This document shows positions 2,086 through 7,242 of a stretch of 39,054 bases of DNA, one piece after another. The position numbers and the translations under genes were made by a program. The notes below the pieces were generated by a model. That model was given only the letters and a program-made list of their open reading frames with translations, was not told where the DNA came from and made no database searches. Position 1 is the stretch's first letter. Every line of letters starts with the position of its first letter. The stretch is from Fimbriiglobus sp. (GTDB lineage: Bacteria; Planctomycetota; Planctomycetia; Gemmatales; Gemmataceae): assembly GCA_025351325.1 (NCBI GenBank), contig JANXWE010000177.1, forward strand, positions 1-39,054, read 5' to 3'.

Positions 2086-4014
2086 ATGTCCCTCGTTCGA
2101 CCTCTCATTCTGCTCGGCTTGTTTGCCGGAGTACTGCTATTTACGGCGACGTCTTCCGTTTACGCAGAAGAGCCGCCTGCTGCCCCCGCTGCCGTGGTCG
2201 CACCACCCGTTGCACCGGCACCAGCCACTGTGAAAGATGTCAGCGACGCGAAAGACGGAGCCATCGCCACCGCAGACATTGCCTGGGTTTTGGTCTCGAC
2301 CGCTTTGGTGATGTTCATGCTTCCAGGCCTTGCCCTATTCTATGGTGGCATGGTGCGTCGAAAAAATGTCCTCGGGACGATGATGCACACCATGGCGGCC
2401 CTCGGGATCGTCGGCGTGCAGTGGGTCGCCTGCGGCTACATGCTCTCGTTCGGGGAAACAAAAGATCTCCCGATTGTGGGCAAAGGTGTCATCGGTTGGA
2501 GTCCGGAATTGATCGGCCTCGGTTCTTCGGCAGCCGTCGGCACCGATTTGAAAACAGAACTGACCGCGACCGGCAAAGACCCTGAGAAAGCCACCGACTC
2601 GGAGAAGGAAGAGGCCCAAAAGTCGGTTGACCACAAGAACCGTTTCAAGACATTCCCGAATACCAAGCTGCCCCTGTACTTGCACGTCATGTTCCAAGGG
2701 ATGTTCGCGATCATTACGGTCGCCCTCATCAGTGGGGCTTTTGCGGAACGGGTGAAATTCGGCTCGTACTGCCTCTTCATCTTGCTCTGGACGACGATCG
2801 TTTACGATCCGCTGGCACACTGGGTCTGGTCGTTCAATTGGGAGAAGACCAACCCGTCCGATCCAGCCACGGCTGCGGCGGGCTGGTTGGGTGCTAAAGG
2901 GGCCATCGACTTCGCCGGCGGTACGGTCGTTCACATTGCTGCCGGGGTCTCGGGCTTGGCGGCGGTGCTGTTTCTGAAGAAACGAGCGGGCTACCTGAAG
3001 CAGACGTTCCACCCGAACAGCATGGTGTTCACTCTTCTCGGTGCCGGGATGCTCTGGTTCGGCTGGTTCGGCTTCAACGGCGGTTCGGCCTTGGCCAGCA
3101 ACGCTCAAGCGGTCTCAGCCTTCACGGTGACGCAAATCGCCGCCGCCGCCGCCAGCCTCGGCTGGATGTGCGTGGAGTGGATCCACCGCGGCAAACCGAC
3201 GGCCCTCGGGTTCGCGTCGGGACTCGTCGCCGGACTGGTGGCGATCACGCCGGCCAGCGGGTTCGTGACCCCGGGCGGGGCAATCCTCATCGGCATTTTG
3301 TCGGGCGTCGTCTGCTACTGGGCCGTGACTCTCAAGACGGTGTTCGGCTACGACGACTCGCTCGACGCCTTCGGCATCCACGGGGTCGGCGGGATTCTCG
3401 GGGCGGTGCTCACCGGGGCACTCGTGAGCCTGCCGCTGTGGGTCTATGGCTCGGGTTTGGCTGCCGACACGTTCCCAGGCAAACTGACCGAAGCCAAGAC
3501 GGGGATCGATTTCTCCGCTCAGATTCAGGTGCAGTTGCTCGCGGTCGCGTCGGCGGCAGCCTACGCGTTCGTGGTCACGTCGATTCTGGTCGTGCTGATC
3601 GACAACACCATCGGCTTCTCGCTGAAAGCCGACGCCGAAGCGACCGGGTTGGACTTGAGCCAGCACAACGAAATGGGGATGGACATCGGGCCGGACGTCG
3701 ATGCTGGTGCCGTGGTGCAGATGCCGAAGGCGGCGAACAACCCACCGGCGATGACCAACGGTCACTCCAAGCGGTTCACCGTAGTGATCGAAGGGGTGGC
3801 GGCGAAGGATCTGCACAAGGCCTGGGAAGAGCTTTGCAAACCGAAGGACGATGGCCCGAGCAAAGAGTTCAAAGCCATCTACCCATACTTGACTACGGTG
3901 AAGGGGAACCTGTTCCGCTTCCGCGGTGGCGATCCTGTCACGATCAAAGAGACGATGAAGTCGCTGTTCGAGAACGCACTCGACACCACGGTGCAAACGC
4001 ACGTCGAACATTAA
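2086..4014 (+). CDS. amt: Ammonium transporter (Amt/MEP/Rh) with extra C-terminal domain
   Basis: This 642-residue inner-membrane ammonium channel has a signal peptide (about 1-27) and a Pro/Ala-rich linker before the first membrane helix. Family motifs include ALFYGGMVRRKN, GIVGVQWVACGY, QGMFAIITVALISGAFAER, DFAGGTVVHIAAG, WFGWFGFNGGS and AFGIHGVGGILGA. The last two histidine-containing motifs carry the twin pore histidines. There is a charged insertion (about 160-195) between the early helices. After the last helix and the usual short tail, about 80 residues form an extra soluble domain (KRFTVVIEGVAAKDLHKAW to the end). It reads as beta-alpha-beta-beta-alpha and I do not recognise it. A P-II gene follows 72 bases downstream, the classic amtB-glnK order. 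Confidence 0.93.
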   Translation: MSLVRPLILLGLFAGVLLFTATSSVYAEEPPAAPAAVVAPPVAPAPATVKDVSDAKDGAIATADIAWVLVSTALVMFMLPGLALFYGGMVRRKNVLGTMMHTMAALGIVGVQWVACGYMLSFGETKDLPIVGKGVIGWSPELIGLGSSAAVGTDLKTELTATGKDPEKATDSEKEEAQKSVDHKNRFKTFPNTKLPLYLHVMFQGMFAIITVALISGAFAERVKFGSYCLFILLWTTIVYDPLAHWVWSFNWEKTNPSDPATAAAGWLGAKGAIDFAGGTVVHIAAGVSGLAAVLFLKKRAGYLKQTFHPNSMVFTLLGAGMLWFGWFGFNGGSALASNAQAVSAFTVTQIAAAAASLGWMCVEWIHRGKPTALGFASGLVAGLVAITPASGFVTPGGAILIGILSGVVCYWAVTLKTVFGYDDSLDAFGIHGVGGILGAVLTGALVSLPLWVYGSGLAADTFPGKLTEAKTGIDFSAQIQVQLLAVASAAAYAFVVTSILVVLIDNTIGFSLKADAEATGLDLSQHNEMGMDIGPDVDAGAVVQMPKAANNPPAMTNGHSKRFTVVIEGVAAKDLHKAWEELCKPKDDGPSKEFKAIYPYLTTVKGNLFRFRGGDPVTIKETMKSLFENALDTTVQTHVEH

Positions 4015-4086: not shown

Positions 4087-4440
4087 ATGAAAATGATCGT
4101 CGCCATCATCCGCCCGGAAAAGCTCGACGAGGTGCAGTTGGCACTCGCCGAACGCGATGTGTACCTGATGACCGTCACCGACGTGCGTGGGTGCGGCCGG
4201 CAGCGTGGCTACACAGAAGTCTACCGCGGTCAAGAAGTCCAAACGCGGTTGATCCCCAAACTGAAAATCGAAATCGCGGTCAACGAAGCGTTCGTCGAAG
4301 CGACCGTGGAAGCGATCATCCACGCGGCTCGTACCGGCGACACCGGCTCCATCGGCGACGGCAAAATCTTCGTGCTGGCCCTGGAAGACTCGTTCCGCAT
4401 CCGCACCGGCGAAAGCGGCCCCGCCGCCATCGGGCCATGA
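4087..4440 (+). CDS. glnK: P-II family nitrogen regulatory protein (GlnK-like)
   Basis: This 117-residue trimeric signalling protein would bind ATP/ADP and 2-oxoglutarate and plug the Amt channel. MKMIVAIIRPEKLDEV, GCGRQRGYTEVYRG (T-loop base with Gly37 and Gln39), KLKIEI, IGDGKIFV and RIRTGESG match the family. Position 51, where E. coli GlnB/GlnK has the uridylylated tyrosine, is valine here (GQEVQTR). Position 49, the cyanobacterial phosphoserine, is Gln. Tyr46 is kept. A three-residue insertion (GDTGS) precedes IGDGKI. The gene directly follows amt, which supports a GlnK role, but control by tyrosine uridylylation looks impossible. Confidence 0.92.
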   Translation: MKMIVAIIRPEKLDEVQLALAERDVYLMTVTDVRGCGRQRGYTEVYRGQEVQTRLIPKLKIEIAVNEAFVEATVEAIIHAARTGDTGSIGDGKIFVLALEDSFRIRTGESGPAAIGP

Positions 4441-4445
4441 TTGAA

Positions 4446-5789
4446 TCAGTCGGTCGGCTTCAGGTTGCGGGTACTCCAGGCTAACAGCCCGGCACCGATG
4501 ACCGCAGCGATGGCCGAACCCGCGATGATCCCGATCTTCGCAGCGTCTTGTAGCTCTGGCGGGGCCGGGAAGGCCAACCCCGCGATGAACAGCGACATGG
4601 TGAAGCCGATCCCGCCGAGCACTCCGGCGGCGAGAAGCATCCGCCAAGTCACTCCACGCGGGAGATTCGCCAAACCGAGTTTCACCGCGAGGTAGCTGAA
4701 CCCGACGATGCCGACGGTCTTGCCAAGCACTAAACCCGCCATGATCGCCAAAGCCACGGGGTCGAGGATCGCGGCGGGCTTTACTTCGACGCCGGCATTC
4801 GCCAACGCAAACACCGGCATGATCACGAATCCGACCCACGGGTGCAGCCGATCTTCGATCCGTTGCAGCGGGGCTACGGCTTCGCGCGCGGCATAGCGTA
4901 AAATTGCCACATCGTCGGGGCGAAGCTCCACAACTGGGGACGTATCGTCGAGCTGGCCGGACACCTCCGTGAGTGCCAGTCGCAGCGTTTCCCGGGTCAA
5001 CCACGGGGTCGAGGGGGTGAGCAATCCCAGGAGGACGCCCGCGACGGTCGGGTGAATTCCCGCCTTATACACCGTGAGCCAAATGAAGGCTCCGACGACG
5101 ACATAAATACTCACGGTGCGAACGCCGAGCCGATTCAGCAGTACCAGGGCACCGAAGCCCGCGCCGGCGAGTGCCAACATGTACAGATTCAATTGTTCGG
5201 TGTAAGCGACCGCAATCACCAGCACGGCACCCATGTCGTCAGCGATGGCCAAGGAGAGGAGAAAAATCTTCAACCCGAAGGGGACACGCGGGCCAAACGC
5301 AGCCATCAAACCGACAACGAAGGCGATATCGGTGGCCATCGGCACGCCCCAACCGCGTTCTGCAGGGCCATCGTGGTTGAACGCGAGGTAGATACCAGCG
5401 GGCACCAGCATTCCACCAAGTGCCGCGATCACCGGGAGCGCCGCTTTCTTGGGCGAGCTTAACTCCCCCCCGACGATTTCACGCTTGATTTCGAGGCCGA
5501 CTACGAAGAAGAAGATCGCCATCAGCAGATCGTTCACCCAGAAATGCAGTGGCTTGTCGAGTTCCCATGTCCCCGCACCCAGTCGCAAGCTCGTCTCCCA
5601 GAAATCGTGGACGGGCTTAGCCCACGCGGAATTCGCCAGCAGCAACGCGACGACCGTGCAGACCAGGAGGACGGCGCCGCTGGCCGCTTCGATGTGCAAG
5701 AACCGCCGGATCGGAGCGGTGAGACGGCGGATCGGCGTCGAACGCCGGTAGGTGCTGCTGCGGTTGGAATCGCGACGCGGAGCCGTCAT
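4446..5789 (-). CDS. nhaA: Na+/H+ antiporter NhaA
   Basis: This 447-residue, roughly 12-helix inner-membrane antiporter exchanges sodium for protons. Diagnostic segments are FFFVVGLEIKREIVGGEL, GWGVPMATDIAFVVG, LLSLAIADDMGAVLVIA (the paired Asp of the ion site) and GLVLGKTVGI (the family lysine). The end of the protein keeps GIGFTMSLFIAGLAF. The N-terminus has a basic tail of about 30 residues not seen in the E. coli protein. The ATG at 5789 is the last plausible start; upstream the frame runs into the neighbouring gene's promoter region. It converges on the P-II gene with only five bases between the stops. Confidence 0.93.
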   Translation of the reverse strand: MTAPRRDSNRSSTYRRSTPIRRLTAPIRRFLHIEAASGAVLLVCTVVALLLANSAWAKPVHDFWETSLRLGAGTWELDKPLHFWVNDLLMAIFFFVVGLEIKREIVGGELSSPKKAALPVIAALGGMLVPAGIYLAFNHDGPAERGWGVPMATDIAFVVGLMAAFGPRVPFGLKIFLLSLAIADDMGAVLVIAVAYTEQLNLYMLALAGAGFGALVLLNRLGVRTVSIYVVVGAFIWLTVYKAGIHPTVAGVLLGLLTPSTPWLTRETLRLALTEVSGQLDDTSPVVELRPDDVAILRYAAREAVAPLQRIEDRLHPWVGFVIMPVFALANAGVEVKPAAILDPVALAIMAGLVLGKTVGIVGFSYLAVKLGLANLPRGVTWRMLLAAGVLGGIGFTMSLFIAGLAFPAPPELQDAAKIGIIAGSAIAAVIGAGLLAWSTRNLKPTD

Positions 5790-5922
5790 AGTCTTCAGTA
5801 CCTGTAAGTCGTGACATCCTGCCGCGTAGGACGCTTCCCAATCCGGATGGTGCGCCGCAAGACGCTCGGTTAAGATAGTACGGGTAGCATGATTTTTCCG
5901 CGTTCTAGGAAAGGGACTTGTG

Positions 5923-7242
5923 ATGACGATTCTGCAATGGCGGATACTTTCTGCGACGTGGTTCGCGGTGCTGGTGTTTGGCAGTTCGGTGGTCGGTGCC
6001 CCCGTGCCCGCTCTACCGAGCGATAGCCAACTCAAGGAAACGGCTCTCAAGCTGAATGACTTGGCGACCACCGAGGCGATGCAAAATCAACTGACGACGA
6101 TCCTCAAAGACCGGGCGGCCACCAAACGCCTCGTGACTCTGGCTGCCAAGCTGCAAGCGGATGCAAAGGAAAAAGAGACCCCGTTCAAGTTCAACGGGGC
6201 TTTCGTCTTGGCCAAGCTGGCCCACAACGTCAAAGATTACACCTCGGCCGAACTCTTCTACAAGTTCTGCAAGGCCAACGCACTCAAGATCGAAAGCGGC
6301 AAAAAACTGAGCGAAGCCTACGACGGCCTTATCGACCTGTATTGGGAGCAGAAAAAATTCTTGGAAGTCGAAGAACTCTGCGCGGAGTTGCTGAACAGCG
6401 AAAACGAGAGCGACGATATCCAAGGGGCTCGCGGCAGTGCCATCGAAAAAATGATCCAATCCAAAGCGCGTCGGGGCGACCACGACGAGGCGTTGAACAT
6501 GGTCGACGCGATCATCGCTTCCGACAAAAACGGTGGCAATTGGTACGCCTTGAAACTGAAATCGGACGTCCTTCGCGAGTCCGGCAAAATCGACAAAGCC
6601 ATCGAAATCTACCCCGAAATCATGAAGAAACTCAAAGCGGATAAAGGTCTGAAAAAAGAGCCGAAGGAAAACCTCACGCGGAACCTTCGCTATGCGCTCA
6701 CCGGGTTGTATGTCGAGAATAAAGAGATCGACAAAGCCGCAAAAATTCTCGAGGCGCTCGTGAAGGAAATACCAGAGAACGCCGTCTACAAGAACGACTT
6801 AGGCTTCATTTGGGCCGACAACGATCAGAACCTGGAAGAATCGGAGAAGCTCATCCGGGAAGCACTCGCACTGGATGCGAAAGCTCGTGAAAAAGCATTG
6901 AAAGATGAGAAAATCGACGCCGAGATGGCCAAGAAAGTGAATGCGGGCTATCAGGATAGTCTCGGCTGGGTGCTCTACAAAAATAAGAAGTACGACGAGG
7001 CCATCAAACTGCTCACGGAAGCGAGTGCGGACGAAGACGACGGCCAACATATGGAAATTTGGGATCACCTCGCGGACGCCCACTTCGCCAACAAAGACAC
7101 GAAGAAGGCCGTCGAGATTTGGACCAAAGCGTTGAAATTCGACGACGTGTCCAAGCGTGATATTGAACGCCGCAAGACCATCGGTGAGAAGATCGCCAAA
7201 GCGAAAGCGGCGATCATTGAGAAGCGAAATTTGGAAAAGTAG
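5923..7242 (+). CDS. Secreted TPR-repeat protein
   Basis: This 439-residue protein has a signal peptide (hydrophobic stretch, then VVGAPVPALP) followed by an all-helical, Lys/Glu-rich body. Several tetratricopeptide-like units are visible: AELFYKFCKANALK, KIDKAIEIYPEIMKK, KEIDKAAKILEALVKEIPEN, YQDSLGWVLYKNKKYDEAIKLL and DTKKAVEIWTKALKF. TPR arrays are scaffolds for protein-protein contacts; no catalytic motif is visible. The ATG at 5923 is directly preceded by an in-frame GTG at 5920, and an AGGAAAGGGA sequence could serve either. It diverges from nhaA over a 130-base spacer that should hold both promoters. Confidence 0.8.
   Translation: MTILQWRILSATWFAVLVFGSSVVGAPVPALPSDSQLKETALKLNDLATTEAMQNQLTTILKDRAATKRLVTLAAKLQADAKEKETPFKFNGAFVLAKLAHNVKDYTSAELFYKFCKANALKIESGKKLSEAYDGLIDLYWEQKKFLEVEELCAELLNSENESDDIQGARGSAIEKMIQSKARRGDHDEALNMVDAIIASDKNGGNWYALKLKSDVLRESGKIDKAIEIYPEIMKKLKADKGLKKEPKENLTRNLRYALTGLYVENKEIDKAAKILEALVKEIPENAVYKNDLGFIWADNDQNLEESEKLIREALALDAKAREKALKDEKIDAEMAKKVNAGYQDSLGWVLYKNKKYDEAIKLLTEASADEDDGQHMEIWDHLADAHFANKDTKKAVEIWTKALKFDDVSKRDIERRKTIGEKIAKAKAAIIEKRNLEK

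Follow-up and report, generated by a model that had tools for sequence, protein, structure and literature searches.

A conserved, uncatalogued C-terminal domain on the ammonium transporters of Gemmataceae, a probable built-in control element of nitrogen uptake

In Escherichia coli the association of GlnK with the ammonium transporter AmtB follows nitrogen status even where Tyr51 is not modifiable, and the modification affects the dynamics of the association (PMC4274968). In Methanosarcina mazei, an organism without GlnD, GlnK1 was seen to bind AmtB1 only in the presence of sP36, a protein of 61 amino acids; homologues of sP36 have been reported in Isosphaeraceae, another planctomycete family, and how P-II governs ammonium uptake in the many organisms that have no GlnD has been raised as a question (PMC10714827). 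A different arrangement is known from the planctomycete Kuenenia stuttgartiensis, where in Ks-Amt5 an Amt is fused to a 269-residue histidine kinase and transport has been lost (PMC5764959).

We report on an Amt gene of Fimbriiglobus sp., located in a stretch of 39,054 nucleotides (assembly GCA_025351325.1, contig JANXWE010000177.1; hereafter "the window"), the product of which carries a C-terminal domain, here called the tail, that is discrete, conserved and a member of an uncatalogued family. Amts with fused signalling domains are already known; the tail domain itself matches no catalogued family, and our literature searches, with most subscription papers outside their reach, returned no description of it. 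Given that the tail belongs to no catalogued family, occurs only on Amts and is present on several Amt lineages, it probably acts as a built-in control element of nitrogen uptake.

The Amt gene and its C-terminal tail

The features of the locus are given in Table 1. The window Amt matched PF00909 with an E-value of 5.7e-115 (384.7 bits against a cut-off of 23.2) and also exceeded the cut-off of TIGR00836 (NCBIfam), and PF00909 was the sole match in the Pfam scan, with no second domain and no kinase. The pore motifs DFAGGTVVHI and FGIHGVGG (twin His, conserved Asp) are present and were aligned to Af-Amt1 and AmtB; the alignment of the core to A. fulgidus Amt-1 and E. coli AmtB extends through the C-terminal region motif GLDLSQHNEMG.

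Table 1. Position of the Amt gene, its parts and the adjacent P-II gene in the window
Feature	Position	Strand	Evidence
Amt ammonium transporter ORF, 642 aa, with N-terminal signal-like segment	2086..4014	+	ORF, PF00909, TIGR00836
Amt membrane core, residues 66-531	2281..3678	+	PF00909; alignment to Af-Amt1 and AmtB
C-terminal region motif GLDLSQHNEMGMD, residues 521-533, common to ordinary Amts	3646..3684	+	Alignment to 2b2f and 2ns1
Pro-rich linker, residues 534-561 (28 residues)	3685..3768	+	59-row alignment; low pLDDT in model
Linker motif P-[RK]-x-A-x-x-P-P, residues 547-554	3724-3747	+	59-row alignment
Uncatalogued C-terminal domain (tail), residues 562-642, predicted ferredoxin-like fold	3769..4011	+	Alignments, AlphaFold2, distribution
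P-II (GlnK-type) gene, 117 aa, Arg47, Val at position 51	4087..4440	+	PF00543 (E 1.2e-27); T-loop reading

An extra soluble domain after the Amt core had been noted in the initial annotation, and it is indeed present as a discrete tail of 81 residues, which begins KRFTVVIEGVAAKDLHKAW and lies past PF00909, the C-terminal region and the linker. The start given there, position 3740, falls inside the linker and out of frame and has been replaced by that in Table 1. In the alignment of 59 tail rows, a few of which are the same gene fetched twice, the linker motif is conserved more strictly than most of the tail domain, and may itself serve as a binding motif; it is missing in one tailed Amt (G565).

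Across 35 relatives the tail is 30-77% identical to the window copy; 21 relatives could be aligned readily, and 36 when the domain alone was used. Trp580 and Phe610 are invariant in the 59-row alignment, and Cys584, Tyr599, Thr603, Gly607 and Gly615 almost so. In close pairs dN of the tail was lower than dS and within the range of the membrane core; the tail is under purifying selection. A chance read-through is ruled out by this dN to dS relation, by the range of identities and by the presence of the tail in 83 of the 95 Gemmataceae genomes (profile search).

The Amts of some relatives (G436, L071:6020-8530; G013, L078:5049-7646) have a Lys/Glu/Ala-rich, coiled-coil-like insert of more than 100 residues between the last two transmembrane helices, together with a similar Lys/Glu/Ala-rich N-terminal stretch. 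Going by Amt topology, both additions would be periplasmic. The window Amt does not have the long insert.

Predicted fold and family searches

AlphaFold2, run on the domain alignment, gave a mean pLDDT of 95.9 and a pTM of 0.84, with the secondary structure E3-9, H13-24, H33-41, E42-46, E49-53, H57-72 and E77-81 (E, strand; H, helix). The tail is confidently predicted to be an autonomous domain with a ferredoxin-like fold. This bears out the resemblance pointed to in the initial annotation, and the structure predicted for the tail alone had designed ferredoxin folds among its Foldseek matches; the beta-alpha-beta-beta-alpha order suggested at the same time was incomplete, the model having one more helix and one more strand, beta-alpha-(alpha)-beta-beta-alpha-beta.

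Foldseek matched the predicted tail to common folds only, the best hit (E 0.011) being a designed protein. The best VIA-align match was HAH1, with Z 5.9 and an rmsd of 2.5 over 63 residues, where a Z under 8 does not speak for kinship and, by the note of the tool itself, may mean only a common arrangement. Searches of Pfam, NCBIfam and PHROGs with the tail and its relatives gave no convincing match, nor had a family been recognised in the initial annotation, and a PDB profile search with the tail gave only chance-level matches. The tail did not match any described Amt-associated domain, and relatives have it in conserved and ordered form.

Several candidate identities were tried and rejected. 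The tail is not a degenerate P-II: the hhalign probability was 0.1%, PF00543 (P-II) did not match it, and the T-loop is absent from the model, where the second and third strands (42-46 and 49-53) are joined by a two-residue turn. P-II-like structures appeared only weakly among the Foldseek matches (3dfe, probability 0.28), and they were absent among the 50 VIA matches listed, an absence that excludes nothing. A metal chaperone was rejected as the tail has no CxxC (there is a single Cys in the window tail), a redox role for the conserved Cys was rejected as Trp or Phe stands at the site in 2 of 59 rows, and a similarity to glycerate kinase (2b8n, E 0.19) was too weak for use.

Distribution of the tail and the Amt lineages that carry it

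The 83 Gemmataceae genomes with the tail are the same 83 that have PF00909, while the 12 tail-less genomes of the family have no PF00909, i.e. no Amt. In Gemmataceae all 88 tail copies are directly preceded by an Amt core that shares their contig and strand. Outside the family, an Amt-fused tail was found in one further genome of the order Gemmatales (G031) and, in another planctomycete class, in 3 of 198 genomes (G361, G565 and G636), again always fused to an Amt. No free-standing tail was found in the planctomycete genomes searched, all copies being Amt-fused; the Planctomycetota-wide survey was limited to scoring 12 candidates in each genome, and some copies may have escaped it. The 28 Planctomycetia Amts from outside Gemmatales with readable ends have no tail and come to an end 13-50 residues after the C-terminal motif begins. 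The closest named copy, with 78% identity, is from a Fimbriiglobus MAG and was one of three loci obtained in a search with the single protein; it puts the window within or close to Gemmataceae. A mobile or viral origin of the tail was considered and rejected, as plasmids, phages and viral contigs yielded no relatives.

Phylogenetic trees were built on the Amt core alone, with the tail removed. The core trees have two deep Amt clades with full support, and tailed Amts are present in both. Specifically, clade 1 holds most of the Gemmataceae tailed Amts, plus G361 with G636, and clade 2 holds two Gemmataceae groups (G020, G458, G455 and G480; G015, G459 and G460), plus G565. Well-supported branches force at least five changes between tail and no tail, which places the tail on at least five Amt lineages; no firm order can be given to the gains and losses, and some of the core trees bring long branches together. 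With at least five lineages in two deep clades, including members of another class, the tail behaves as a portable Amt module. In genomes with two tailed Amts, the two tails are only 37-49% identical and therefore not the product of recent copying. G015 and G460 yielded a single Amt each, which is tailed and belongs to clade 2. A second Amt of G021 (L072:3142-5058) likewise belongs to clade 2 and has a P-II of its own; it retains the linker motif as EPKPATAP but is without a tail, apparently as a result of secondary loss.

P-II context and possible role of the tail

The gene next to the window Amt, 72 nucleotides downstream, encodes P-II, in agreement with the initial annotation. Among 49 tail loci with at least 600 nucleotides of downstream sequence each, a P-II gene lies downstream of the tailed Amt in 40 (32 of 35 in the first set and 8 of 14 further distinct loci), and in nine no P-II gene is present in the downstream sequence read; tail-less Amts elsewhere also adjoin P-II. 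The window genome contains a single Amt gene and three genes for P-II (G000:C239, C10 and C15), and only the P-II gene of the window adjoins the Amt. An ORF for an NhaA-type Na+/H+ antiporter (4446-6071, minus strand; PF06965, E 2e-145) converges with the P-II gene, and its start was probably placed too far upstream in the mechanical call.

All 31 readable P-IIs at tail loci have Arg47, the residue that in the solved complexes GlnK of E. coli inserts into the AmtB pore. Of these proteins, 29 carry I, V, F or L at position 51 and 2 carry Y, and the P-II of G636 retains Tyr at this position; among 21 P-IIs next to tail-less Amts of the class, 16 have Y51 and 5 have F51. The window P-II and most relatives also show three additional residues ahead of the IGDGK nucleotide loop (e.g. 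ARTGDTGSIGDGK), which are missing from the P-II of G011 and from many P-IIs beside tail-less Amts.

With TIGR01693 over its cut-off as the measure, GlnD was found in none of the 22 tail-bearing genomes tested, a total that includes the window genome and 12 selected tail-bearing genomes, three of them from the other class (the GlnD survey in the class of G361 covered its three tail-bearing genomes). GlnD is present in 30 of 59 genomes of the window's class, all of them from families f4-f9, i.e. every f4-f9 genome sampled, and these are tail-less relatives; it was found in none of the 15 Gemmatales and none of the 14 f3 genomes. The sampled f3 Amts are tail-less although f3 is without GlnD, so a genome that has lost GlnD need not have the tail. 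The relation between the tail and the absence of GlnD is one-way at best, and the correlations with GlnD and Y51 rest on few independent lineages or events. The tail and P-II co-diverge (partial Mantel r 0.38, P 0.0005); the control partial correlations for tail and core and for core and P-II are equal to this (0.37 and 0.39), so the co-divergence may reflect only shared ancestry, and mirror-tree support for a contact between tail and P-II was rejected since the controls are no weaker.

The C-terminus of Amts is cytoplasmic. By this general topology the tail would be in the cytoplasm, three per trimer, beside the face where P-II docks, and the first suggestion made for it, a sensor or a P-II docking platform, is plausible and consistent with the evidence. 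We propose that a ferredoxin-like domain of about 80 residues hangs by a Pro-rich tether on the cytoplasmic end of each Amt protomer, in cells that apparently would be unable to time P-II docking on Amt by GlnD-dependent uridylylation of Tyr51. The tail would touch P-II at the docking face as a built-in adaptor or modulator, a role we infer because uridylylation is apparently unavailable, and it would alter docking by aiding the binding or release of P-II according to the ATP, ADP and 2-oxoglutarate state. In function it would resemble the separate sP36, on which the binding of GlnK1 to AmtB1 depends in M. mazei. The results on unmodifiable Tyr51 (PMC4274968) and on sP36 (PMC10714827) favour such a tethered adaptor. 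That the tail is an adaptor or regulator tuning P-II docking without uridylylation is held tentatively, at a little short of an even chance. The wider proposition, in which an undescribed Amt-only domain family spreads among Amt lineages in planctomycetes without GlnD and replaces uridylylation in the control of P-II docking, as a covalent counterpart of sP36, is somewhat unlikely.

Alternatively, the tail could be a ligand sensor that binds a small nitrogen-status metabolite (amino acid, nucleotide or 2-oxoglutarate), in the manner of ACT and similar ferredoxin-like domains, and gates the Amt directly, without P-II. The predicted fold is of the ACT/Lrp-type effector-domain kind (structural Z about 5, and 5.1-5.6 to ACT proteins), and those tailed Amts that have no P-II gene alongside would fit; however, these values are below 8 and no evidence of kinship, no ACT match was obtained in Pfam, the ACT families being diverse, and no ligand site was recognised in the tail. 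We consider direct gating of this kind unlikely.

A structural or membrane-anchoring role, also improbable in our view, would fit the charge pattern of the tail. The 59-row alignment has a basic consensus at the alternating strand positions 3, 49, 51, 53, 77 and 79 of the domain, which, if strand alternation is a guide, would all lie on the open face of the sheet, and most tails have a positive net charge; this face could bind acidic lipid headgroups or the neighbouring protomer and thereby stabilise or place the trimer. On the other hand, positions 49, 77 and 79 are Leu, Gln and His in the window copy, and Amt trimers of other organisms are stable without such a domain. Finally, a docking site for another assimilation enzyme (e.g. 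glutamine synthetase), coupling ammonium entry to use instead of serving P-II control, would suit a portable module that occurs on Amts only, has a linker motif under strict conservation and is not universally adjacent to P-II; we regard it as very unlikely.

Returning to the tethered adaptor, the adjacent P-II is the obvious first partner, and the tail is a small soluble target for study that is genetically separable (81 codons). It concerns a whole bacterial family, as every Amt-bearing Gemmataceae genome has at least one tailed Amt.

Among known proteins, the heavy-metal-associated domains (HAH1/ATOX1) include the best structural match to the tail, which differs from them in having no CxxC metal-binding motif. 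Compared with AmtB-GlnK (glnK-amtB operon), the window locus has the same Amt core, the conserved C-terminal region and an adjacent P-II with Arg47, whereas AmtB has no domain past the C-terminal region, the window P-II has Val at position 51 and the window genome is without a full GlnD. With sP36 of M. mazei (PMC10714827), compared by description only, the tail would share the position of a small protein part at the Amt/P-II interface, and both have a host without GlnD; sP36 is a free protein of 61 amino acids that forms hexamers, while the tail has 81 and is covalently fused. Ks-Amt5 (PMC5764959) is likewise a planctomycete Amt with a soluble domain on its cytoplasmic end; the window tail, unlike that domain, has only about 80 residues and no kinase match, and nothing suggests that transport has been lost. 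The tail adds an uncatalogued domain family to these known Amt architectures.
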